From NCBI RefSeq assembly GCF_000024205.1, contig NC_013216.1, positions 2,356,001 through 2,420,000 on the forward strand: a DNA stretch of 64,000 bases, read 5' to 3'. Below are positions 26,653 through 63,769 of this stretch, one piece after another. This DNA is from Desulfofarcimen acetoxidans DSM 771 (GTDB taxonomy: Bacteria > Bacillota > Desulfotomaculia > Desulfotomaculales > Desulfofarciminaceae). A model generated the notes under the pieces. It was not told the DNA's origin. It worked only from the letters and a program-made list of their open reading frames with translations, and ran no database searches. Position numbers and translations under genes: made by a program. The stretch's first letter is position 1; every line of letters begins with the position of its first letter.

Positions 26653-26740
26653 GATTATGCCGCAGAAATGATTATCGGCGACGCATACAGAAAAGCCACA
26701 TGATGACGGCTTCATATTTTAAAAGTGCGGAATAATTTTT
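26653..26740 (+). repeat. RIT 1 inverted repeat, left
   Basis: 88 bp, complementary to 30951-31038 except at two positions. Inside it, ATTATGCCGCA near one end and TGCGGAATAAT near the other are themselves nearly inverted copies, suggesting paired recombinase sites. Confidence 0.9.
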
Positions 26741-26790
26741 CACATTCTGGACAGACTTAATGCTGAAATGCTACGAACGGATGTGAAAAC

Positions 26791-28044
26791 ATGCCTCGAT
26801 TAACTGATTTTATAAATCTTTCGAATGAATTAAAACGGGTTCCAATCTCGGAACTGATTGTGAAGGCAAAGTCGCTGGTAAAAGCAAAGAGATACTCGCA
26901 GAGTACAATATGGCACTACAATGAAAGGTTCAATGATCTCCAACATAGCTCGGCCCTATTTAACACAGAAAAACTCTCGGAAAAATTTATTGCTCAGTAT
27001 ATTGAAGAAGGAATGCAAAAGAGTCCTAAACTTGCTCGTAGTAGTGTCCAAAGAAAAGCGCTTCTTAACTTGATCGCGGCAGCCGTCAACACTACTCCTG
27101 TTTTCACTAACGAAAAAGATGCTGATAAAATCCAAATCAAGTCTCTTCGAGAAAATCTAAATACCTATAATCAGTATCTCAGAGAACAAGAAAAAAGAAA
27201 GGAAACGATAAAATCATATCTTCAGGTAGCGACAAAATTTCTACTTTATCTGGATAAAAATAAAAAGAGCAATTTCTCTAAAGTCACGGCAATTGATATC
27301 CGGGAATTCATTACTGATTTAGGCGCCAAATGGTCGCCAAGAAGCATGCGGATTGTACCGTCACAACTCAAAACCTACCTGAAATTTGCGGGATTCCCTG
27401 TGAACGCCATACTTTTCTCGAGCTTTCGCGCCCCCCGCAAGAGCAAACCAGTCCGTGCTATGAGTTTTGAAAATGTAGAAGCTCTTTGGAAATATATTGA
27501 GGGCGATGATGGGGATTTAAGATCAAAAGCGATAGTGACAATACTGCTTGCGACAGGCATGAGGCCGGTTGACATTACCGAACTCAAACTTGATGATATT
27601 AACTGGAACAATGACAACATCGGCTTTATTCAAAGCAAAACAGGCGAAGGCATGAATATTGAACTCTTTCCTGTGATGGGTTCAGCGATTATCAGATATA
27701 TGACCGAAGAACGCCCTAAAGGAACAGGAGCGAAATTTATTTTTCTTACAAAAAAGGCTCCATACCGCGGACTCACTCCATCCGTTTGTAATTGCATTTT
27801 AAAAGTTGCCTTAGAAAAAATCGGCGTCACTTTTGTCGCGGACGGACTTCATTGTCCGAGAGCAGTAAGGCGCAGTTTAGTATCACGAATGATTGCAAAA
27901 GGTGTCCCTGTACAAAATGCCGCTGCGGCTATCGGGCATGTCGATGAAAAATCTGTTGATTTGTATACTGAACTGGATGTGAAAAAGATGAGATCTATCT
28001 GTCTGCCTATACCGAATCCTATGAAAGAATGGTTGTCAACCTAA
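26791..28044 (+). CDS. RIT 1 tyrosine recombinase, first gene
   Basis: 417 residues. N-terminal SAM-like core-binding region (about 110-210: YNQYLREQEKRKETIKSYLQ). Catalytic region: Arg in LLATGMRPVDITEL (about 256), Lys in QSKTGEGMN, the HCPRAVRRSLVSRM segment supplying His/Arg, His in AAIGHVDEKSVD and Tyr in DLYTELD (about 390). It makes a complete active site plausible. The stop TAA overlaps the next start as TAATG. The ribosome site in front of ATG 26791 is weak. Confidence 0.85.
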   Translation: MPRLTDFINLSNELKRVPISELIVKAKSLVKAKRYSQSTIWHYNERFNDLQHSSALFNTEKLSEKFIAQYIEEGMQKSPKLARSSVQRKALLNLIAAAVNTTPVFTNEKDADKIQIKSLRENLNTYNQYLREQEKRKETIKSYLQVATKFLLYLDKNKKSNFSKVTAIDIREFITDLGAKWSPRSMRIVPSQLKTYLKFAGFPVNAILFSSFRAPRKSKPVRAMSFENVEALWKYIEGDDGDLRSKAIVTILLATGMRPVDITELKLDDINWNNDNIGFIQSKTGEGMNIELFPVMGSAIIRYMTEERPKGTGAKFIFLTKKAPYRGLTPSVCNCILKVALEKIGVTFVADGLHCPRAVRRSLVSRMIAKGVPVQNAAAAIGHVDEKSVDLYTELDVKKMRSICLPIPNPMKEWLST

Positions 28045-29909
28045 TGGCTTATAAAAAACAACAAGATAGGCTTCTCAGCCCCTTAACTAAAGAAATCGAG
28101 GAATTTATTGACTTCAAGCAACAATCAGGCTCCCTGTATACAAGTTCTGAGTTTGCGCTAAAAGCCTTTAATAGATTTTGTGCCGCGGTGGAAAACCAAG
28201 CCTTGACTCCTCAACAATTAGCTGAGGCCTGGGTAAAGTCAGGTGATGATAAACCAAAATATGATGGTGGTTGCTGTGTCAGGCAACTCGGGCAGTACCT
28301 TACCGCGCAGGGGCACCCCAAAGCATTTACTGTACTCAGCGCTAAAGGAAACACCCCTAGGCTGCTTGGTATAAATTCTGGTCCTTTTGTCAGGGAAATC
28401 AAGGAGTTTGTTGATCAAAAAAGATCAGCGGGTCGAAAATATATTTCCGAGGGGTACTGTCTAAAAGCCTTCGATAAATTTTGCGCTATGAAGGAGAATG
28501 AATTTTTGACTCCCCAGCAGTTGGCAGACGCCTGGTGCGGGAAGGTTAGAGAAAAAAACACCGCTAATATTGGGATGATTAGAGAGTTAGGCATGTACCT
28601 CACCATGCAGGGTAGTACGAAATCTTTTGTGGTTCCTTATGCGAATGGAGATATGCCAAAACCGCCATTTACCGGGTACACAGGTTCGTTTGCGGAAGAA
28701 ATCGTATCGTTTCTTAAAACGAAAAGATCTGCCGGTTTGAAGTACAGACATGAGGAGTTTCGCCTAAAGGACTTCGATAAATTTTGTAATGAGCAATCTA
28801 ATTTGAAATTGTCTCTGCGGCAACTGGCTGACGCGTTTATACATTTCCAAGAGGAACGCGGCTATTCCAAGAGCAGAAGAAGTACCTCCGTTATTAAAGC
28901 ATTCGGTAACTATCTTACTAATAATGGTTGTTCAAACGCTTTTACTATCATTGATAAAAATTTCGTCGCTGGCCCATATGCGGAAGAGATATCGGCTTTT
29001 GTCGCCTTCAAAAAATCTTGTGGATTTAAGTATCTCAATTCCGGTTACCATCTGAGGTCTTTCGATGTGTTTTGCGCCTCGAAAGAAAACGAATCTCTGA
29101 CCCCTCAACAATTGGCTGATAAATGGGTTCTAAAAAGAGACAATGAACATCCGAATACACGTGCTGGCCGGGTAGACCCAGTCAGAGTTTTCGGCAAATA
29201 TCTTACAAGCATTGGACATGCCAAAGCTTTTACGATTGCGGTTGATGCCGCGCAAAGGAGGTCTCCTAAGCCTCCATATCTATTTTCAGAAGACGATATT
29301 GATATATTCTTTGGCGCATGCGCTGAATTGAAGCCGGATGAAAAAGAACCATCCATGCACATCGTTCTTACGGCGGCGTTTTTATTTATGCACTGTATGG
29401 GTGTCAGGACATGTGAATTAAAAATATTGATGGAGAATGTGAATCTTGAAACCGGCGAAGTCATCATTATTGACGCCAAGACCGGTGAACGGTCTGTGTA
29501 TATGAGCGAGGAGTTATCTGAATTTCTTTTCAAATACAATTTAGTGATCGAAAAGATTTTTCCGCGTCACAAGTACCTATTTCCCGCATCCGTAAGCCGA
29601 TCCCGTAACGACTTTGCCAAACACTTCAGGGAAATATGGACGTCCAATGTCCCCGCCGTGGAGCATGGGGGACCCAGGTTATACGATTTTCGTCACCATC
29701 TTCTATATCGAAATGTTGAATTGTGTATGCGAAACGGTGATGATGTGAATGTCCTGCGGCCATATTTAATGAGACATATGGGGCATAAGTTGCCGGAGAG
29801 TTTCCAATATTACTTCCATCTATCACCACCAATTCGAAAAGAGGTATCCCAGATCAAAAAGAGCTTGGACTGGATGATACCTGACGTTCCGGAGGTTCCA
29901 TATGAGTAA
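28044..29909 (+). CDS. RIT 1 tyrosine recombinase, second gene, four repeated domains
   Basis: 621 residues from ATG 28044, coupled by TAATG (the frame opens at 28029). About 400 residues consist of four tandem ~100-residue repeats, each with the pattern FxxEIxxFxxxKxSxGxKY, LKAFDxFCxxxExxxLTPQQLAdxW and YLTxxGxxKAFT (starting near residues 15, 115, 215 and 310). The C-terminal catalytic domain has MGVRTCELK (Arg), DAKTGE (Lys), LYDFRHHLLYRN (Arg with Tyr where His is usual), MRHMGHKLPES and the Tyr region SFQYYFHL. The repeats resemble multiplied core-binding domains. Confidence 0.85.
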   Translation: MAYKKQQDRLLSPLTKEIEEFIDFKQQSGSLYTSSEFALKAFNRFCAAVENQALTPQQLAEAWVKSGDDKPKYDGGCCVRQLGQYLTAQGHPKAFTVLSAKGNTPRLLGINSGPFVREIKEFVDQKRSAGRKYISEGYCLKAFDKFCAMKENEFLTPQQLADAWCGKVREKNTANIGMIRELGMYLTMQGSTKSFVVPYANGDMPKPPFTGYTGSFAEEIVSFLKTKRSAGLKYRHEEFRLKDFDKFCNEQSNLKLSLRQLADAFIHFQEERGYSKSRRSTSVIKAFGNYLTNNGCSNAFTIIDKNFVAGPYAEEISAFVAFKKSCGFKYLNSGYHLRSFDVFCASKENESLTPQQLADKWVLKRDNEHPNTRAGRVDPVRVFGKYLTSIGHAKAFTIAVDAAQRRSPKPPYLFSEDDIDIFFGACAELKPDEKEPSMHIVLTAAFLFMHCMGVRTCELKILMENVNLETGEVIIIDAKTGERSVYMSEELSEFLFKYNLVIEKIFPRHKYLFPASVSRSRNDFAKHFREIWTSNVPAVEHGGPRLYDFRHHLLYRNVELCMRNGDDVNVLRPYLMRHMGHKLPESFQYYFHLSPPIRKEVSQIKKSLDWMIPDVPEVPYE

Positions 29910-30951
29910 AAGAAAACAAGACGCTGACGTAAATGAGTTCTGGTCATTAGCCCGATCATTTCTTAAAGTGTATTTACCAAATGCGCGAGAAGTCTCCCAG
30001 AATACTGTAAAAGCCTACAAACAGGCACTGGAGACTTTAATCAAATATCTTGAGGATTCTGGATTTACCAGAGACACTATCACGATTGGAACGTTTACGC
30101 CCGCGTGTATTGAAGGTTTTATGGTTTGGATGTCTAAAGAACAAAATTGCAAACCGCGAACCTGTAACTTAAGGCTTTCGGCGATTAAAACATTTCTTCG
30201 ATATTGTGGTCATCATGTAATCACCAATGAATCGATCAGCCGCGAAGTACTTGAGCTTCCGATGAAAAAGGTTCGAAAAGAAAAGATTGAATACATGTCC
30301 AATGGAGCTACGGCTGCTATTATGAATGCTCCAGACAACAGGAGACTTATAGGCAGACGAAACAAAGCTATGCTATCACTGCTCTATGATAGCGCCGCCA
30401 GAGTTCAGGAACTCGTAGATATCAAGGTGGACGATCTGTATTTAAATGAGAAAGCCAGCGCGGACGGTGAGTCATTTGTTACTCTACGCGGAAAAGGCGA
30501 TAAGTTGCGGAACGTCAATTTGTCGCCCAAGACTGCTAAACTCATTCAATCATACTTGAATGAGTTTCACCCCAGGGAGAATCGCGGCGCGCCGCTGTTT
30601 TATACAAAGAGGGCCGGTTCGCTGTGGCCACTGTCTGTAGACTCTGTTAGCAGAATTTTAAAGGAAAACGCGGATAAAGCTCGTTTGTGCGTTCCAGACA
30701 TTCCGGAAAGAATTCATTGTCACTTGTTAAGGAAGAGCCGGGCTATGCACTTATATATAGCAGGTGTACCTTTGCCTGTGATCATGGAATTACTTGGACA
30801 CGCAAGCATGAATACCACATCCGGCTTCTATGCTTTTGTCACATGGGAAATGGTGAGCGAAGCGATGAAAAAGGCAAATGAAGGTCACTTGGAAGGTGAA
30901 ATGTTGTGGAAGGAACCTAATGTCCGAAAACAATTGTATACTTTGGATTAA
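29902..30951 (+). CDS. RIT 1 tyrosine recombinase, third gene
   Basis: 349-residue XerC-like recombinase. Core-binding domain near 10-115, catalytic part with YDSAARVQELVDI (Arg), LRGKGDKLRNV (Lys), HCHLLRKSRAMHLY (His, Arg), ELLGHASMNTTSGFYAF (His, Tyr). All active-site residues are present. It overlaps the second gene by 8 bp, and its stop codon touches the right inverted repeat. Confidence 0.9.
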   Translation: MSKRKQDADVNEFWSLARSFLKVYLPNAREVSQNTVKAYKQALETLIKYLEDSGFTRDTITIGTFTPACIEGFMVWMSKEQNCKPRTCNLRLSAIKTFLRYCGHHVITNESISREVLELPMKKVRKEKIEYMSNGATAAIMNAPDNRRLIGRRNKAMLSLLYDSAARVQELVDIKVDDLYLNEKASADGESFVTLRGKGDKLRNVNLSPKTAKLIQSYLNEFHPRENRGAPLFYTKRAGSLWPLSVDSVSRILKENADKARLCVPDIPERIHCHLLRKSRAMHLYIAGVPLPVIMELLGHASMNTTSGFYAFVTWEMVSEAMKKANEGHLEGEMLWKEPNVRKQLYTLD

Positions 30952-31038
30952 AAAATTATTCCGCACTTTTAAAATATGAAGCCGTCATCATGTGGCTTTT
31001 CTATATGCGTTGCCGATAATCATTTCTGCGGCATAATC
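30951..31038 (-). repeat. RIT 1 inverted repeat, right
   Basis: Complement of 26653-26740, 86 of 88 bases. It is followed by the one-sided palindrome 31041-31063. Confidence 0.9.
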
Positions 31039-54984: not shown

Positions 54985-55149
54985 TTTATAACGATATTTA
55001 TTATTTCGGTTCTATATAGTTGTTCTAAAATAGGTTGTAAGTCCATGACGATCCCTCACTAATATTGTAAGTATTCAGTGAACCGGCTATAAAAATCAAA
55101 AATCGCAAATCAAAAAACTGAGTAATATATTGGGTAAGTCGTATTGGAC

Positions 55150-55216: not shown

Positions 55217-56104
55217 CTATGCATCAACCAAAATACTGCGAAAATCATTTATGAGAGGATAAAGATAAATATCTTTAACTGGCAATTTATACTCATTAAA
55301 TATATCCAGTTTACCTCTGCCTTTTGTGCAACCAACAAACATCCAATTGGCGGCTTTATAACATGTACCAATAAACCGATCCTTTTCCACAAACGTCTCC
55401 AACAATACCGGATTGTAACCGTAAACATCTTGCCAATCGCCTGGTAGTCTTTTTGCACAAAGAGAGAGAATTTTAGAAGCAAGGTTTTTGGAGTTCACCC
55501 ATGGTAAAATCAAAAATCGGGAATTATTAACGACCAGATGAAGCTTTTCCGTTCGCTGATCTTTAGACCAACCAATCCAAGTATCCCTGGGTTGTACCTT
55601 CCAGGCTGCAGCGGAAAAACCTATTGCTCCTAGATAGCCTAATGGACAAGTGATTAGATAACGGATCTGTGCTCCGGGTAAAGGCTTATAGCCTAAATAG
55701 TGATAACGCTCAATAAATTCATTCCATAAATAGGAGTCTTTTTTAGAAATAACACGCTGTATTTCTAAAGGTGTTAGTTTCCCAGCAGGCTCTATAATTG
55801 GATCTTTGGGATCGCCTTCCGGAGTTTGACGGGAAAATTTATCTCCATTACCATAGCGGTGTCTGGGTGCGGGCAATTCAATCAAACCGGATCTATATAG
55901 TTTTAATAATGCTACCCGGCAACTCATATCTTTTAAACCACCGTCCGGCTTAAACCACCCGAATACCAAACAAACCTCACGAGATATTTTTTGCCGTGAG
56001 GCTGACGGGTTATCGGTTATAAATTTTCTAATTAGCACCAGGTCATCATAACTAAAAACTCTCCCGCAGATTTTCTTGGGGAAATCCTCATCAGTAATAA
56101 TCAT
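55217..56104 (-). CDS. DruA-like DUF4338 protein
   Basis: 295 residues. The whole length fits the DUF4338 family, the DruA component of Druantia: FIERYHYLGYKPLPGAQIRY, GAIGFSAAAWKVQPRD, NNSRFLILPWVNSKNLASKI, LLETFVEKDRFIGTCYKAAN and VGCTKGRGKLD. The start ATG 56104 shares a base with the tnpC stop (TAATG), so it is translated together with the IS66-type transposase. No druB-E genes are nearby. It is therefore likely a cargo or accessory gene of the element and not a Druantia locus. The frame opens earlier, at 56125. Confidence 0.85.
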   Translation of the reverse strand: MIITDEDFPKKICGRVFSYDDLVLIRKFITDNPSASRQKISREVCLVFGWFKPDGGLKDMSCRVALLKLYRSGLIELPAPRHRYGNGDKFSRQTPEGDPKDPIIEPAGKLTPLEIQRVISKKDSYLWNEFIERYHYLGYKPLPGAQIRYLITCPLGYLGAIGFSAAAWKVQPRDTWIGWSKDQRTEKLHLVVNNSRFLILPWVNSKNLASKILSLCAKRLPGDWQDVYGYNPVLLETFVEKDRFIGTCYKAANWMFVGCTKGRGKLDIFNEYKLPVKDIYLYPLINDFRSILVDA

Positions 56105-56372
56105 TATATTGCCCTCCCCAAGCACATGGAGTACTTTTTGGCGACATTCTCAGGAATATTCCATGGGAGAAGTGTCTCCAAGTTAGTAGGCGGTTCACCG
56201 TTTTTTGCACACTCATCAAAATAATATCGTAAGTATGCTTCACCGTTTAATCCGTGCATGGCAGCCGTCTGAAATATAGACATACAAGCGGCCGCAAGGT
56301 CGCCACTCCAAAGGGAATGGGTACCGTAATAATTCTTACGTCCTAAGGCTACAGTACGTAATATACGTTCGG
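56104..56372 (-). pseudogene. tnpC: IS66 TnpC transposase, C-terminal part
   Basis: About 88 residues: VAERILRTVALGRKNYYG, THSLWSGDLAAACMSIFQTA, MHGLNGEAYLRYYFDECA and LLPWNIPENV. This completes the IS66 transposase after its interruption by RIT 2. It ends TAATG into the DUF4338 gene. Confidence 0.85.
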
Positions 56373-56402
56373 CTACTAATCCTCATATGAGAATAACGCA
56401 GT

Positions 56403-56482
56403 TTATCCTCAACATTAGAAAATCCTCAGGATTGTATGAAAGTAGCTTAAATCAAGGATATACTTATTCAATCCTGAGGATT
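56403..56482 (+). repeat. RIT 2 inverted repeat, left
   Basis: 80 bp, perfectly complementary to 60452-60531. It contains two short palindromes, AATCCTCAGGATT and AATCCTGAGGATT. Confidence 0.95.
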
Positions 56483-56485
56483 ATT

Positions 56486-57523
56486 TTATCTCAAGCCACA
56501 CAGTTTGGCCATTTCTTCTTCATTACATGATGTCCATAATGGTTCCTCGTTTGTCTGCTCTGGTATTTCTACGGATTCAATTGCTTTTCTAAGCATTTCT
56601 ATCGACGGTTTTGCATAGACTTTTGTTGTTTCAGTTGATGAATGCCCGAGGATTCTTGATACAAGCTCAAGTTCCACGCCGTTTTGATAGAGGTCGGTTG
56701 CCCTTGTCCGCCTAAACATATGCGGATATACTTTTAATGGTATCTGAAGACATTTCTCTCTTGCGCTATTTGCATATTGCTTAATAAAGCGTTCTACATT
56801 TCCGGGAGACATCCTGTCTGTAACTCCTTTAATCCTGGTAATGAATAGATATTGATCCATGTTTAAATCATTCTTATGATACACCGACAAATATTGTTTT
56901 AGATGCTCTGCTGTTTTAGGAGTTATAGCAACGATGCGTTCTTTATTCCCCTTTCCTGAAATTCTTATGTAAGGATTATCGGTTCGTAGGGAAAGGTCCT
57001 TCAGTGTAAGGCATAACAACTCATCCAATCTTACTGCGGAATCATAAAGAAGTATCATAATAACCCGGTCACGTAATCCCATTTTCGTATTTGGTGGTTG
57101 CTGCAGGATGGCAGCAAGAGCTTCTTCTGTTAATGTTTCTTTTTCCTTTTTTGGAATCTTACACTGTGGTATTTTGGAAATACTTAATGCGACTGACTGG
57201 ACTGCAATATCTCTATCGGCAGCAAACCATAGATAGGACTTTAATGCGGTAAGCCTTTGATTGCAGGTTCCAGGGCTATTGTTATTATCCTTTAGATATA
57301 TGATAAATTCCTGAATACATTTCTGATTACAGTCGGCAAATTTAAAAGCAGCAACCGATATGTGGCACTCATCATACAGATAACGCCTGAAAACTGTAAG
57401 AGAATCTTTGTATGATTTAATAGTTTTAGAGCTTCTTCCTAATTGGCGTGGAAGATATGTTTCAAGAAACTCCAATGTCATGGAAAAAAACAGTGTTCCG
57501 GTCTGTAGTCCTTTATTCTTCAT
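56486..57523 (-). CDS. RIT 2 tyrosine recombinase, third gene
   Basis: 345-residue XerC/D-like enzyme. Core-binding domain near 10-115. Active site: LLYDSAVRLDELLCL (Arg), ISGKGNKERIV (Lys), YPHMFRRTRATDLY (His, Arg), ILGHSSTETTKVYAKP (His, Tyr). Complete. It overlaps the second gene by 11 bp. Confidence 0.9.
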   Translation of the reverse strand: MKNKGLQTGTLFFSMTLEFLETYLPRQLGRSSKTIKSYKDSLTVFRRYLYDECHISVAAFKFADCNQKCIQEFIIYLKDNNNSPGTCNQRLTALKSYLWFAADRDIAVQSVALSISKIPQCKIPKKEKETLTEEALAAILQQPPNTKMGLRDRVIMILLYDSAVRLDELLCLTLKDLSLRTDNPYIRISGKGNKERIVAITPKTAEHLKQYLSVYHKNDLNMDQYLFITRIKGVTDRMSPGNVERFIKQYANSAREKCLQIPLKVYPHMFRRTRATDLYQNGVELELVSRILGHSSTETTKVYAKPSIEMLRKAIESVEIPEQTNEEPLWTSCNEEEMAKLCGLR

Positions 57524-58487
57524 AAGGAACCACCTCCGGGATCACTCTTCCTGACAGGGAGTCTTTCTTTCGAACAATCTGAAACGCCTTGTCCACCTGA
57601 TGATAATAGTAAAAGGTGCCTTCTACGCTGGAATGGCCAAGATATCTACTAAGGTAAGGCATCATAGTGTTCAGGCTGGTTCCCTCCAGCATCCATTCGT
57701 TCATCCGGTTCACAACAAAAGTATGCCTCAGTGCGTGTATGGTCGGAGCTTTGTCACAAGCATCTGCAAATGGTGTCATGTTCCAGAACTGTTTGAACTT
57801 TTTATACATGCTTGTTTTCCGTATAGGTTGTCCCTGGACTCTTCCCGGAAAAAACCATTCAGAGCCGGGCAGTAAGGATACCATCCTTTTATGGTAATTC
57901 CGGCATAGATCAGCAACGTCGTCAGCCATGTATACCAGCCGATCCTTATTACCTTTTGACTGTACGATTTTTAAAATACCATCTTCAAGATTTACATCCT
58001 TTACTTTAAGATTACAGACTTCTGCCAGCCGTAAACCACAGCAGTAATAAAGCCGGAAGATGACCTGGTACTCTATAGAAAAACGCTGCCATTTTTCTTT
58101 ATCGGGAAGATATGAATCGATTACATGATATAAGCTTTTTAATTCCTCTGTACTTAATATATGAGGAATGGTGGTAACTGTTGAAGCTGTCTGACGGGGT
58201 ATGTATGAGTTGATTCCCAGTGAATTCATATATAGAGATAATTGCCGAATGAAAGAAACCCTTTGATTACGGTAATTAATTCCCTCTGTTTCTCTTTGAA
58301 CAGCCCATTTCATTACCAGTTCCCGGGTTATAACAGTATCACGGAAGCCGTTATCGACACAAAAATCATCGAATGTTTTAAGGATATAAGCTTCATACTC
58401 ATATAGGAAACCATCAGCCCTTTTTTGACAGATCAATCCTTCGATATATGGAGCAAGGCTGCTGCGATAAACATAGGTTTTTTTCAT
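57513..58487 (-). CDS. RIT 2 tyrosine recombinase, second gene
   Basis: 324 residues. YYCCGLRLAEVCNLKVKD (Arg), QSKGNKDRLVYM (Lys), TIHALRHTFVVNRM (His, Arg), YLGHSSVEGTFYYYHQV (His, Tyr). All catalytic residues present. It overlaps the first gene by 4 bp (ATGA). Confidence 0.9.
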   Translation of the reverse strand: MKKTYVYRSSLAPYIEGLICQKRADGFLYEYEAYILKTFDDFCVDNGFRDTVITRELVMKWAVQRETEGINYRNQRVSFIRQLSLYMNSLGINSYIPRQTASTVTTIPHILSTEELKSLYHVIDSYLPDKEKWQRFSIEYQVIFRLYYCCGLRLAEVCNLKVKDVNLEDGILKIVQSKGNKDRLVYMADDVADLCRNYHKRMVSLLPGSEWFFPGRVQGQPIRKTSMYKKFKQFWNMTPFADACDKAPTIHALRHTFVVNRMNEWMLEGTSLNTMMPYLSRYLGHSSVEGTFYYYHQVDKAFQIVRKKDSLSGRVIPEVVPYEE

Positions 58488-60388
58488 GACAGCATCCCTC
58501 CCTTCACCTCAATGCCTTTCAGTGAAAGGGCACATTGCCTCATGGTATCACCATCTGTTGCCAGATATTTAAGGACGGTTGATGTGTCGCTATGACCGAG
58601 CGAATTTGCTATCGTATCAACATTAGTTTTGCTTTTAAGCATGCGCGATGCAAATGTTTTTCTGATGATATGGAAGCCATGTTTTCGTTTGTTTAACGCT
58701 TTGTTTAGAGCACGGCGACAACAGCTTGTGTTAAGTTTGCCGTAAGGAACTCTGTGGGTAATAAATACATAATCGGAAGTTACACGGGGCCTTCCGTTCA
58801 TGATATACCTGTACAGACTGTTTCCAACATCCACCGACATGGGAAGTTTTAAAAATCTGTCGGTTTTCTGCTGCTGCACAGAAATTGTGCGTTCCTTCCA
58901 TGAAATATCGGACAGTTTCATTCCTGTAATATCAGAGGCACGCAGTCCCATACGGAGTCCGATGAGAACAATGGCTGTGCTTCTTAATTCCATAGGCTTT
59001 TCTGCATTTGACCTGAAACTATAAACAGAAGCAACTTCTTCTTCCGTAAGTATCTCCACGATTTCTGTTTTTTGTGCGCATTCAGTGGTCAGAGCCAACT
59101 GAAGCGTTACTGGTAAATATCCCATGTCGGCAAGATAATCCAGAAACCGGCGTATCCTCACACTATAGGCATTTTTTGCTTCTGCTGTTGAATGAGGATC
59201 TGAAATATGGAATTCTTTTATGATTTCAGGGTTTATCATAGCACAACATGTGATATTTTTCTTGTCAAGAAATTTCAAAAATCTTAGGCACGAAGAACGG
59301 TACATACTGACTGTGGAGACGGAATTTCCTTCTTTCTTCTTCTTTGACAGAAAATCTAGAACCAGGCTGCGGCTCCATTCGGGTAGTGTGTTAATGGAAT
59401 CTTCTTTATACGAATATACGATATTTGGCTTGATATCCCCATATACCCTATATTGTTCAAAAAGTTTCATGGCACGCCTGTAAGATTTCCACTGAACAGT
59501 GTAGTTTTTAAGGCAGATACACCAGTATTCTGCTGTTTTGTATGAATAACCGAGTCCGTTTGCCTCCAGAAAGATATACAGTTCTCTCCATGCTTTGCGG
59601 AAAACTTTTCTCATCGTTTTTGAATAATTATGACGGTCAAGATTAGTATCGCCCAATTTCTTAGCAATGGAATAGTACTCAGTTGCGGGAATTTTGCCTG
59701 AAGTCTGGTCTAAGGAATATATATAAGATCTTTTTTTCACATCAGGAAGTTCATCTATGATAATTATCCTCGGTACGATAAATCGGTCCAATGAATACGT
59801 CAGTGATGCAGGTATCAAATCTTTACCGGCCAGATATTGAAGGAAATGCCGTATATTACGGTTGTATAAGTTTTTAGCCTGAACGGTACTGTGTTCACTT
59901 TGGTAATAATACCCTATAACGTTTTTGTGGTTGATATCCTCTATATTCTTTCCGCCGATGATACTGATGTAAATCAAGAATTTAGAACAGGCTACCCTGT
60001 GTTCTGCTACATAGCCTTCGCTGAATGAGTGCGAGATATTATTCAGGTAACCATCCAGCAACAGTCGGCACCACAAAGGAAGCCTGTCATAGTTACAGGA
60101 ATTTTCATATACATAGCTATCGGTGCTAATGCACCCATTTCTCATAACATCATTAAGCCGGAAAAGTGAAAGTCTGGACATTTTAAATTTAGAACGCTTC
60201 CAGCCCGGTTTATTATTGTTTAACCACTTTAGCGCTTCTTCAGGTGAATAAGAAATCTGTTTTTCTTCCAGATACTGTTTGAACGAACGATAACAATGTA
60301 AATGACCGTAAATGACAGACATTGAAAAATGATTTTCGATAAGATATTTATTTACCTTACCAACTGCATTGTTATAATCTTGATACAT
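58484..60388 (-). CDS. RIT 2 tyrosine recombinase, first gene, repeated N-domains
   Basis: 634 residues from ATG 60388, which has CGAGGAGGT upstream (the frame opens at 60502 inside the inverted repeat). The N-terminal ~430 residues contain repeated core-binding-type units; two are plain: VQAKNLYNRNIRHFLQYLAG and AEAKNAYSVRIRRFLDYLAD, each followed by a LIPASL/YLPVTL segment. Catalytic part: LRMGLRASDITGMKL (Arg), QQQKTDRFLKL (Lys), HGFHIIRKTFASRML (His, Arg), LGHSDTSTVLKYLA (His, Tyr). Confidence 0.88.
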   Translation of the reverse strand: MYQDYNNAVGKVNKYLIENHFSMSVIYGHLHCYRSFKQYLEEKQISYSPEEALKWLNNNKPGWKRSKFKMSRLSLFRLNDVMRNGCISTDSYVYENSCNYDRLPLWCRLLLDGYLNNISHSFSEGYVAEHRVACSKFLIYISIIGGKNIEDINHKNVIGYYYQSEHSTVQAKNLYNRNIRHFLQYLAGKDLIPASLTYSLDRFIVPRIIIIDELPDVKKRSYIYSLDQTSGKIPATEYYSIAKKLGDTNLDRHNYSKTMRKVFRKAWRELYIFLEANGLGYSYKTAEYWCICLKNYTVQWKSYRRAMKLFEQYRVYGDIKPNIVYSYKEDSINTLPEWSRSLVLDFLSKKKKEGNSVSTVSMYRSSCLRFLKFLDKKNITCCAMINPEIIKEFHISDPHSTAEAKNAYSVRIRRFLDYLADMGYLPVTLQLALTTECAQKTEIVEILTEEEVASVYSFRSNAEKPMELRSTAIVLIGLRMGLRASDITGMKLSDISWKERTISVQQQKTDRFLKLPMSVDVGNSLYRYIMNGRPRVTSDYVFITHRVPYGKLNTSCCRRALNKALNKRKHGFHIIRKTFASRMLKSKTNVDTIANSLGHSDTSTVLKYLATDGDTMRQCALSLKGIEVKGGMLS

Positions 60389-60451
60389 GAAAGTACCTCC
60401 TCGATATTTTGGTAATTTCAGTATCATGCAATTTGTGGTAGTGTACAATAA

Positions 60452-60531
60452 AATCCTCAGGATTGAATAAGTATATCCTTGATTTAAGCTACTTTCATAC
60501 AATCCTGAGGATTTTCTAATGTTGAGGATAA
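60452..60531 (-). repeat. RIT 2 inverted repeat, right
   Basis: Perfect complement of 56403-56482. The reading frame of the interrupted tnpC runs through it to a stop at 60484. Confidence 0.95.
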
Positions 60532-61926
60532 GGCCAAGTTGTTATCCATTGGAACATGGACATAGTGCACAAATGTGGTGAGCTCGTCCCAGTTCTTTTG
60601 AGCACTTTCCAATACCTTGCGCTGAAGGGAATGCAAGTTGGCACTTTTTAATTCATCAGTACATTTTTGTGCCATATCTTCTAAAGCAAATTCTAGCTTT
60701 AACTGAGCCCTGGCAAAGGATAAATGGTCATCTTGGGCATCCAAACGGTCATTATTTAGTTTATAAATGTATCCAATGAACTCAACCCATTCATCGGACC
60801 AGAATTTTAATGAAGGCAAGGATTTACCGACATCAATAAAATCCCTGCGAAAATGAGCCCAGCAAAGGGCTTTAATTAAGCCACCATTGAGATTGGTGAG
60901 CTTATTATAGGCGGAATAACGATCACAATTTAATATTCCATTAGCTTGCTGTCCGAAATGGGCATAAGGAACCTGACTGGAGCGGTGCTCATCCAATATA
61001 AATAGAGCAGTTTTATGGGAAACAAAAACCCACATCCACCAGTTATGACCTTTTTTATCCTCTACAGGAACATAACTCATCCAGCTGGTTTCATCTACAT
61101 GCCAGTGCTGTTCACTACGATTTATTTCTGCCAGCAAATTGTATAGTGGCAGTAAGGTTTGCAGTAATAATTTAAACCCACCGGTTAAGGTTCCTTCAGA
61201 CACTGACAATCCATGCATCAACAACATTGTATTTAAACGGTGTAACGGAATTTGGAAAAAATATTTTGCAATTAACAGATAGGCCCAAAAATTATTAGAA
61301 AACTTGCTCTTGGGTATAACCTGAGGATCTTTAGGGGCAGTAACAAATCTTTGTCCAGGGCAATTACATACCCGTACAGCCCTTTTGCGAATATGTTTTT
61401 TGCGCACAATTCTAACTTCGTAATCAATTTCATACGAATCTTCAGTAAGGCAAGTGTCTTTTAGTGGTAATCCGCAACAAGGACACAGCAACTGATCTTC
61501 CGGAATTTCGTGGAGGGCTTCCACCTCAGGAAGTTCAGGAATCTTACGACCATGACCTTTATGACCGAGTTTGCCACCGCGTTTTTTAGGCGTGATAACA
61601 GTGGTTTTTCCATTGCAAGTTATATCACAATCACCGGTAGTTTTTCTGCTATCCTCTTTTTTCGAAGTAGGTGTATCGACTCTCTCTGAAGAGGTTCCAA
61701 AAAGAGCATGATTAAGTTTGTTAATCCTGGCCGTTAGACGTTCATTCTCTTCGTTCAAACTATCAAGATATTTTTGCAGTTGCTCAATTTTACCGGTGAG
61801 ATAAATAATATCATTTTCTTTTTCCAAAACAATCTGCTGGATAAAAGAACAATCTGGAAATGAGCAAGGTGTACCACGAAGTGTAAATGTATGTGAAGTT
61901 AATTGAGAAAGCTGTAAGTTATTCAT
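60532..61926 (-). pseudogene. tnpC: IS66 TnpC transposase, N-terminal part
   Basis: About 464 residues: N-terminal coiled coil (IIYLTGKIEQLQKYLDSLNE), leucine-rich ALFGTSSERV, zinc ribbon LLCPCCGLPL, DDE core with HWHVDETSWMSY (Asp), GILNCDRYSAYNKL (Asp) and ALCWAHFRRDF, and PMDNNLA just before the break, where the Glu region would follow. The remainder lies at 56104-56372. Confidence 0.9.
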
Positions 61927-62023
61927 ATGATATATGTTACCAGAAAGATTATAACGTGTTCAGTTTTTTGGGGAAGTTTTTTATCTTTCATTTTATTTTA
62001 TAGCGGGATCACTGAATATGTAC

Positions 62024-62520
62024 CACCGCTCTTACCTTCCATTTTCTTTTCTTCCTTAACGCTGAGAATAGAATACATCATCATAAGCGATACAATTGCG
62101 TGTTCACCACCAGATAAACCGCCACGCTCGGTCACCACCCTAAGCTGTTGTTCATGGGTCTTTTTAAACCACATAACTAGCCGGCGATGGCCACTACCCT
62201 CTTCTTTATTGCGATATTCAAGTTGAACAGTGTAGTTCATAGGAACGAAAACTTCATTCAGTCTTTCGGAAATTGCCCGGACGGAACTGGTAATGATACC
62301 TTCAACCGTTCTATAGTCAGACTCAACGATATTTCTGAAAGAGGCAAGTTCCTCCTCAAGTCGTTGTTTGTAACGCATATTCTTCTCAAGCTCTAGTTTT
62401 AGAATCCGTTTAAAGCTGGTGCCCCCTTGGAAACAGGATATTCTTTTGGAAAAATCGGATTTTACTTCAATTCTTTCAAGCTTTATTACTCTATCTGCTT
62501 TTAAGAAAGTCTGAAAAACT
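62024..62520 (-). pseudogene. SMC/RecF-like ATPase, internal fragment
   Basis: About 165 residues of an ABC-type coiled-coil ATPase: coiled coil LEKNMRYKQRLEEELASFRN, then the signature RGGLSGGEHAIVSLMMMYSI. Walker B and the end are removed by the IS66 end at 62023; the N-terminal half is also missing, its frame merging into the end of the PIN gene. It could belong to a Wadjet-like, RloC-like or other defence ATPase; I cannot tell which. Confidence 0.55.
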
Positions 62521-63021
62521 AGCAGCTCCCAATTTTCTTCGCTTTGCCAACATGGAAGCCCAAATGGCATTTCCTTCATCCTCAGTTATCAATCTCTTAC
62601 TATAGGCTTCAACGAGAATATTTCCTGTAGTAATATGCTTTAATTGAAACTCCTTGACATAATCACCAATATCACGCAAATTATTACTGGCAACAATACC
62701 CCTATTTTCTTTTGCTAAAGCTATTGATGCAGCCTCTCCCTTACCAATTAATTTCTGTCCTTTACCCGGTTCAACCGTCAATCTGTAAAACATATTATAT
62801 TCTTCTGTTCCTACTACAATTTCAACTATCTTAGCTTGACCGGCGGAAACCATTGCATCAATACGACCTTTCAAATGTATTATTCCAGGGCTTAATAATT
62901 CACCATAAACTGGTCTTGGAATTACGATTCTCCCGAGATATAACTGTGCCAATAAACTCTCATTCCTAACCCATAAAAAAGCGGAAATACAATCAGTGTC
63001 GAAGAAAAGCGAATCAATCAA
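62491..63021 (-). CDS. PIN-like ribonuclease toxin candidate
   Basis: 176 residues with PIN-type acidic positions: SLFFDTDCISAFLW (first Asp), IPRPVYGELL (Glu), KGEAASIALAKENRG (Glu), ASNNLRDIGDYV (Asp). PIN proteins cut RNA and serve as VapC-like toxins. Its start overlaps the ImmA/IrrE gene end by 8 bp, so it is the last gene of a three-gene unit. Confidence 0.7.
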   Translation of the reverse strand: MIDSLFFDTDCISAFLWVRNESLLAQLYLGRIVIPRPVYGELLSPGIIHLKGRIDAMVSAGQAKIVEIVVGTEEYNMFYRLTVEPGKGQKLIGKGEAASIALAKENRGIVASNNLRDIGDYVKEFQLKHITTGNILVEAYSKRLITEDEGNAIWASMLAKRRKLGAASFSDFLKSR

Positions 63022-63769
63022 CTAATTCGCCTCCTTCACTCTCATCACCATAGACAATGTCATCACGAAAAGCATCTAATAGCCACTCTTCATATTTGCC
63101 ATTAGATATAACATCAGATTGCAAGAGATTTTCAGCTTGCTTTATATAATGACCATAAGTTCCCTTGTTTTCACTCTCTGGCGTAGGTTTATACAATGAA
63201 GTATCATAACCCAATTTTGCAGCAGTTAAGATGACATTCTTTTGCATGCCCGCTGCATCAGACTGAGACAGTTCACCTTCTTCCTGTAAGCGAAAAAGCA
63301 TTGCCTGTCTGCTAACACCAAAATACTGCTCCAATTTAATGACATCTTTAATAACTAAATTCCGTTTTGCTACGCTTTTTATCTCTTCAATTTTTTCGTA
63401 CAAAGCTGCTGGTGGCATCAGCAAATAAGATGCAAACTGATCAGCAGACTTCTCAGTTTGGTTTCCGCCCCCAATTTTACTCGGACAAATTGTTGAGATC
63501 ATATCTTCATCAAAATAAAGATGATATAACTCGTGAGCCAGCGAGAACCTCTGTCGACCAATAGACATACCTGAATTCACAGCTATTACTGTAGATGTAT
63601 TGTTTTTTAGACATGCACCACTTATTTTTTCTCCCAAAGGATACTTGACTAATGTCACATTTTCAAGCGCATACACTAAAGCAAAAATGTCAATAGGAGA
63701 AGTATTATCTTCTCCTAACTTTTTTCTGACACTGAATGCCTTATTACTTAAAGCCATCTTATCAATCAT
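63014..63769 (-). CDS. ImmA/IrrE-type metallopeptidase
   Basis: 251 residues. Zinc motif QRFSLAHELYHLYFDED (HExxH) and EKSADQFASYLLMPPAAL with the third ligand; the C-terminal part has a winged-helix-like VSRQAMLFRLQEEGEL. It overlaps the upstream XRE gene and the downstream PIN gene by 8 bp each. Expected to act as regulator or protease antitoxin in the unit. Confidence 0.88.
   Translation of the reverse strand: MIDKMALSNKAFSVRKKLGEDNTSPIDIFALVYALENVTLVKYPLGEKISGACLKNNTSTVIAVNSGMSIGRQRFSLAHELYHLYFDEDMISTICPSKIGGGNQTEKSADQFASYLLMPPAALYEKIEEIKSVAKRNLVIKDVIKLEQYFGVSRQAMLFRLQEEGELSQSDAAGMQKNVILTAAKLGYDTSLYKPTPESENKGTYGHYIKQAENLLQSDVISNGKYEEWLLDAFRDDIVYGDESEGGELVD

Follow-up and report, generated by a model that had tools for sequence, protein, structure and literature searches.

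A RIT element of Desulfofarcimen acetoxidans from a lineage that very probably targets the codon for the catalytic glutamate in IS66 transposases

A stretch of 64,000 nucleotides from Desulfofarcimen acetoxidans DSM 771 (positions 2,356,001 to 2,420,000 of contig NC_013216.1; the window, whose numbering is used here) carries an IS66-type transposase gene, tnpC, that is interrupted by three tyrosine recombinase genes between inverted repeats, here called El1. El1 is very probably a self-contained tyrosine-recombinase transposon of the RIT (recombinase-in-trio) type, whose lineage homes on the catalytic-Glu codon of IS66 transposases by way of a palindromic, two-core circle joint. This reading draws on the position of the element, the codon specificity of its lineage, a one-sided joint found across the family, spacers that lie in frame with the target, and identical copies at different sites in relatives.

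El1 and the interrupted transposase gene

By itself, the 5' part of tnpC scores 175 bits against DDE_Tnp_IS66; joined to the 3' part at a 6-bp spacer it forms one TnpC of 553 aa that scores 203 bits and gains the IS66 C-terminal domain, the uninterrupted gene reading PMDNNLAERILR. The joined protein aligns across the junction, free of gaps, with three uninterrupted TnpCs (53–56% identity), bearing out at the protein level a preliminary description of the window in which a RIT element was placed within an IS66 tnpC and its halves were held to be one transposase. The Glu that follows the junction is taken to be the catalytic Glu of the IS66 family. The split had been given as PMDNNLA / VAERILR; tnpC is indeed cut there, but the V of VAERILR is encoded by a donor-derived spacer and the insert extends beyond the repeat. 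The 80-bp repeats, perfect as described and 98% identical across 85 bp, are not the ends of the IS66, which has separate 28-bp ends (Table 1).

In the direction of tnpC the junctions read AACAAC-TTGGCC-(TTATCCTCAAC ... GTTGAGGATAA)-ACTGCG-TTATTCTCATATGAGGATTA-GTAGCC-GAACGT. Past the repeat, on the tnpC 3' side only, a 20-bp near-palindrome lies between two 6-bp spacers, sp1 next to the repeat and sp2 on the outside, the three together occupying 56371-56402 (a 6-20-6 joint); the near-palindrome would represent two recombinase half-sites placed back to back. The repeat at the RitA end contains two internal palindromes, AATCCTcAGGATT, with 28 nt between them.

The genes ritA, ritB and ritC overlap one another on the minus strand, and all three products match Phage_integrase (E 4e-24 to 6e-31), in agreement with the three overlapping recombinases described before. 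No fourth gene between the repeats appears in the list of open reading frames (ORFs), and the tfp/srap or ginC/ginD accessory genes of strand-biased circularizing integrative elements (SEs) and of GInts are not present. El1 RitB is 32% identical to the closest known RITs, for example that of Cupriavidus pHG1. Residues 21-232 of El1 RitA also match a second, downstream segment in the RitA of El2, a relative described below (E 5e-20), which points to an internal repeat. RitA proteins of RIT elements have two sequential core-binding domains (PMC8138268); an AlphaFold model of El1 RitA, poor (mean pLDDT 55) and usable as a helix count only, has four predicted four-helix groups ahead of the catalytic domain.

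The window also holds RIT 1 (26653-31038), inserted in IS21 istA at the catalytic Asp codon (VSD^N, the caret marking the insertion point), with a 6-20-6 joint whose outer spacer gives VPDN. El1 had been called unrelated to RIT 1 and of another lineage. Its lineage does differ (26–33% protein identity), but 'unrelated' fails: in trees of RitA, RitB and RitC, El1, RIT 1, the pHG1 element and eight other RITs form one clade each time (support 99/99, 100/100 and 97/97), and the repeat-6-palindrome-6 end architecture is common to El1 and RIT 1. Gene sizes differ as stated, but the gene order is the same, the difference being an enlarged N-terminal part of RitA in El1 or of RitB in RIT 1. The trio of overlapping recombinases, their places in the three RIT clades and the terminal repeats with an adjacent palindrome confirm El1, by sequence comparison, as a RIT element. 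The suggestion that El1 moved more recently than RIT 1 finds no support, the ends of RIT 1 also being 98% identical over 88 nt; dating one against the other by repeat identity was ruled out, since both stand at about 98–100% and repeat identity is no clock.

Table 1. Features of El1 and of the interrupted IS66 element (window positions)
Feature	Position	Strand	Remarks
El1, whole inserted RIT element including one-sided extension	56371..60531	-	junctions read directly; flanks joined at the 6-bp spacer restore a single tnpC frame
El1 terminal inverted repeat, RitA end	60452..60531	-	perfect 80 bp; begins TTATCCTCA
El1 terminal inverted repeat, RitC end	56403..56482	-	
ritA	58484..60388	-	634 aa from its ATG, tyrosine recombinase; N-terminal part enlarged, internally duplicated
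ritB	57513..58487	-	324 aa, tyrosine recombinase
ritC	56486..57523	-	345 aa, tyrosine recombinase
Inner spacer sp1	56397..56402	-	ACTGCG; reverse complement CGCAGT would give RS in the NNxxE motif
20-bp near-palindrome	56377..56396	-	TTATTCTCATATGAGGATTA; 8/10 pairs
Outer spacer sp2	56371..56376	-	GTAGCC; taken as donor-derived footprint, VA
Target-derived 6-bp spacer	60532..60537	-	TTGGCC, codons LA of NN-LA-E; identical in homologous insertion L048
IS66 tnpC, 5' part	60532..61926	-	465 codons, up to PMDNN plus LA
IS66 tnpC, 3' part	56107..56370	-	from the catalytic Glu codon GAA
IS66 terminal inverted repeat, distal	55067..55094	+	28 bp; pair 86%
IS66 terminal inverted repeat, tnpC start side	61996..62023	-	28 bp

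A shared codon position in IS66 transposases

About 40 further RIT loci (L numbers below) were read from Bacillota genomes and plasmids, in a sampling seeded by El1 RitB that was neither random nor exhaustive, and 28 loci were taken through end-calling. Relatives returned by the RitB search include loci of Clostridium punense (L030), Desulfosporosinus (L031) and Ignavibacterium (L032), together with L047, L048, L057 and L071. All nine clear IS66 insertions of the El1 lineage share one codon position, NNx[AGS]^E, beside the catalytic Glu: El1, El2 (L026), L048, L057, L071, the 5' halves L031 and L032, the remnant L118/L119 and two 3' halves in L030. El2, found in the same genome as El1 (RitC 61% and RitB 59% identical), sits in a different IS66 tnpC (ELSNNRA^ENAIRP) with the end layout of El1, and in L118/L119 an El2-type repeat, together with a remnant of RitC, cuts an IS66 tnpC at the shared codon. 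In L030 (4923-9120) a tnpC 3' half stands on both sides, each parted from its repeat by a 6-20-6 joint, the layout that recombination of two insertions would give and as expected for a nest of IS66::RIT recombination; the full 32-bp joint is present at both sides, and an older RitA remnant lies near. Among the complete IS66 insertions (n = 5; three sense and two antisense to tnpC, the latter being L057 and L071), 5/5 have the extension at the 3' side of tnpC, in either direction of the element.

Such a pattern could also be produced by an ordinary, loosely specific RIT, given abundant IS66 genes, with the shared position derived from one old IS66::RIT composite by descent or horizontal spread. 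In accordance with this, the IS66-inserted trio-bearing elements form, with L047, one clade of the RitB tree (100/100), and a RIT in IS66 has been reported before (PMC2864759). However, the TnpCs that are interrupted are of clearly distinct IS66 types (PMDNNLA, ELSNNRA, PFDNNRA, PFDNNQG and LEIDNNRS) and the element occurs in both orientations, which argues for separate insertions; moreover, other lineages have identical RIT copies in two different genes, and the spacers at the two ends differ synonymously, as described below. Descent from a single composite is therefore considered very unlikely.

Several observations nevertheless weigh against the reading of El1 proposed here. L047, 88–90% identical to El1, is intergenic and without the extension, so that specificity for the IS66 codon is not absolute. 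No near-identical full copy of El1 was found elsewhere in its genome, so that any present activity of El1 is hypothetical. The putative empty site of El1 derives from protein alignment, a DNA search of 113 genomes of the class having returned no near-identical uninterrupted IS66 but a distant match only. In these sequence data neither a circle, nor excision, nor transposition was observed. Finally, the target half-sites have no obvious resemblance to the repeat ends.

A scan of viral contigs with RitB returned no relatives. Another trio in the genome of El1 (L028 1819-5258; G000:C1:3864000-3872000) interrupts the FHDLRHT catalytic motif of a phage-type integrase. A stray 259-bp fragment (L027 1841-2099; G000:C1:943840-944098), 100% identical to the ritA/ritB boundary of El1 (window 58413-58671), directly follows the final repeat of a CRISPR array that has 28 or more of them; the spacers beside it gave no significant match to the window, El2 or the L028 trio.

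The one-sided joint and the targets of the family

At one end of 25 of the 28 RIT loci, a 20-mer with at least 8/10 palindromic pairs lies 6 nt from the mirrored repeat end, a degree of symmetry reached by chance in 3% of random 45-position windows and 0.07% of random 20-mers; its half-sites resemble the repeat ends of their own lineage. The position of the 26-bp extension outside the terminal repeats and on a single side would suit a palindrome that belongs naturally to the target, or the scar of an insertion that was later excised, rather than a part of the element. This is extremely unlikely, as the extension recurs in unrelated target genes at a fixed distance and with lineage-specific half-sites, is not found in uninterrupted genes, and travels as the same 32 bp with the identical copies L076 and L077.

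These two copies, in a single genome (G590), are 100% identical over 3479 bp and lie in two amidoligase genes in opposite orientation. TGGATG-TTATGCAAAGCTTCACATAA-CATCCA is present in both, on the right repeat in one and on the left repeat in the other. In L080 and L081 (99.88% over 3455 bp, two intron reverse transcriptase genes), the palindrome likewise switches repeat. Both arrangements are those expected of a repeat-6-palindrome-6-repeat circle joint that can open at one spacer or the other. The mobility presumed for these elements is read from sequence, relatives having identical copies at different sites. Another possibility is that RITs resemble SE, GInt or Tn916 elements, with a repeat-6-repeat circle joint and the palindrome as an accessory binding site only; 6-bp spacers with donor and target footprints do match the description of SEs (PMC10214605). 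Yet a palindrome that changes repeat, with the spacer order seen in both pairs, is what the longer joint predicts, and SEs and GInts also need non-recombinase genes, which El1 does not have. We regard the simple joint as highly unlikely.

In the mechanism that we propose for El1 and its relatives, the three recombinases would excise the element, or copy it out, as a circle whose joint consists of the right repeat, sp1 (6 bp), the 20-bp palindrome, sp2 (6 bp) and the left repeat, so that two mirror-image cores stand back to back. Either core could then recombine, the exchange being staggered by 6 bp, with a target in which the 6-bp spacer separates the NN codons of tnpC from its Glu codon. Landing in either orientation relative to the gene would be possible because the two cores mirror each other, and, with the palindrome half-site joining one and the same side of the target every time, the 26-bp extension would stay on the tnpC 3' side. 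Of the two junctions left by integration, one would retain the 6 bp of the target and the other 6 bp from the previous target. A mirror-image joint of this kind would need separate handling of the repeat, the palindrome and the target half-sites, and such a division of labour among RitA, RitB and RitC may be the reason for three recombinases.

The spacers are consistent with such a history. The spacer at the plain side often differs from sp2, and the difference is synonymous in the target frame for L028, L053, L078, L081, L083 and L087, as well as, by eye, for L096, L098 and L105; El1 gives LA/VA and RIT 1 VSDN/VPDN. In several elements the motif codons can also be read from the reverse complement of sp1 (RS in El1, LA in L048, PD in RIT 1 and DFR in L028). 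Because a broken gene escapes selection, a synonymous difference suggests an earlier target of the same kind; where the end spacers differ they do so mostly at synonymous positions, and one of them is probably the footprint of a prior target.

Targets were assigned from joined empty sites. Several calls were read by eye (L079 and L093 on one side only), and joined-ORF calls were not counted as target evidence when a clear palindrome, repeat or coding target was missing; L049, L050, L066, L068, L072, L073, L079 as called by script, L088, L090-L092, L094, L097, L099 and L101-L104 were left uncounted as unreliable. The joined sites fall in IstA at L^VSDN (RIT 1), CD^N (L105) and RK^PKDKPxVE (L053, L067, L078), at GH^EKGNVEN (L089), in the IstB Walker A motif (L056, L075), in tyrosine recombinases at FH^DLRHT (L028) and PHS^MRHS (L087), at TT^ERYLGY (L058), in intron reverse transcriptases at Q^GG (L081, L096, L098), in a C5-methyltransferase at GGSP^CQ (L074), in an amidoligase at SC^GIHVHV (L076) and in an HExxH motif (L095). 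Sites outside catalytic motifs are L100 (C-terminal part of IS66), L083 (a repeated methyltransferase motif) and L069 (a methyltransferase N-terminus). A Pfam scan of ten joined proteins confirmed IS66, IstB, Phage_integrase, DNA_methylase, RVT_1 and Amidoligase_2; for RIT 1 the joined target had a Mu-transposase C domain but matched rve weakly, and the joined L089 protein had no hit. On the RitB tree the targets cluster, with 10 changes against 22 in shuffles. RIT relatives appear to lie mostly within conserved active-site motifs of enzymes, usually those of other mobile elements.

The surroundings of El1 were also inspected. A DruA-domain (PF14236) gene (window 55217-56125), without a PADLOC hit, lies inside the IS66 between tnpC and the distal end, and a further remnant of the tnpC-start-side end is found at G000:C1:3093481. 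The IS66 ends lack matching 8-bp flanking duplications (window 55059-55066 and 62024-62031) and a truncated ATPase-like ORF (61998-62579) abuts one of them, which suggests rearrangement after IS66 insertion. At window 62491-63769 a PIN-like ORF stands beside an ImmA/IrrE-like ORF, with weak PADLOC matches to PDC-S70 and, for the second, capP/PDC-M69B, possibly a toxin-antitoxin or defence pair.

Known systems and implications

RIT elements, and a RIT in IS66, are already known. Those on record from Cupriavidus metallidurans CH34 and plasmid pHG1 (Van Houdt 2012, PMC3414803; Janssen 2010, PMC2864759) include an interruption of IS66 tnpA, two radC insertions and a 28–29 bp repeat with a palindrome. 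El1 shares with them three overlapping tyrosine recombinases in the order A-B-C, a length of ~3.5–4.2 kb, inverted repeats with a neighbouring palindrome and insertion into transposase genes, whereas RitA of pHG1 has 420 aa against ~634 aa with a duplicated N-terminal part in El1, and the El1 repeats are longer. No account of an active-site or codon target rule, a 6-20-6 two-core joint or synonymous codon footprints was found in the searchable literature, which did not cover Ricker 2013.

SEs, for which the logic of 6-bp donor and target footprints has been described (PMC10214605), and GInts resemble RITs in having several tyrosine recombinases, inverted end motifs and 6-bp spacers that serve as fingerprint and footprint of donor and target. 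They differ in gene content (intA-tfp-intB-srap in SEs, ginABCD in GInts, both with cargo), and SEs have a circle joint made up of one C'-6-C core, in contrast to the two mirror cores around a 20-bp palindrome proposed for RITs. Tn916 and Tn554 also move by tyrosine recombinases, Tn916 with 6-bp coupling sequences and Tn554 with more than one recombinase; unlike RITs, neither is known to have a trio or a palindromic double core. Inteins and homing introns target highly conserved active-site codons, by which a site is present across divergent homologues. The likeness is one of analogy only, since RITs destroy the target protein and do not splice.

To our knowledge, as far as the literature was covered, RITs have been known since ~2010 without demonstrated movement, clear ends or a reason for three recombinases. 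Natural junctions now define the ends exactly, yield a rule for the target and predict the circle joint, which would make a first transposition assay straightforward and provide a DNA record of the former sites of each element. For the family as a whole, we find it somewhat more plausible than otherwise that RITs are active-site-homing parasites, chiefly of mobile elements, in which each lineage is directed to the DNA of one motif (IS66 Glu, IstA Asp or Glu, IstB Walker A, integrase HxxR, intron reverse transcriptase QGG, methyltransferase PCQ or HExxH), with a palindromic two-core circle joint and up to two earlier codon footprints in the spacers. By hitting conserved active-site codons, a DNA transposon would follow a strategy like that of inteins, and competing mobile elements would be disarmed as well.

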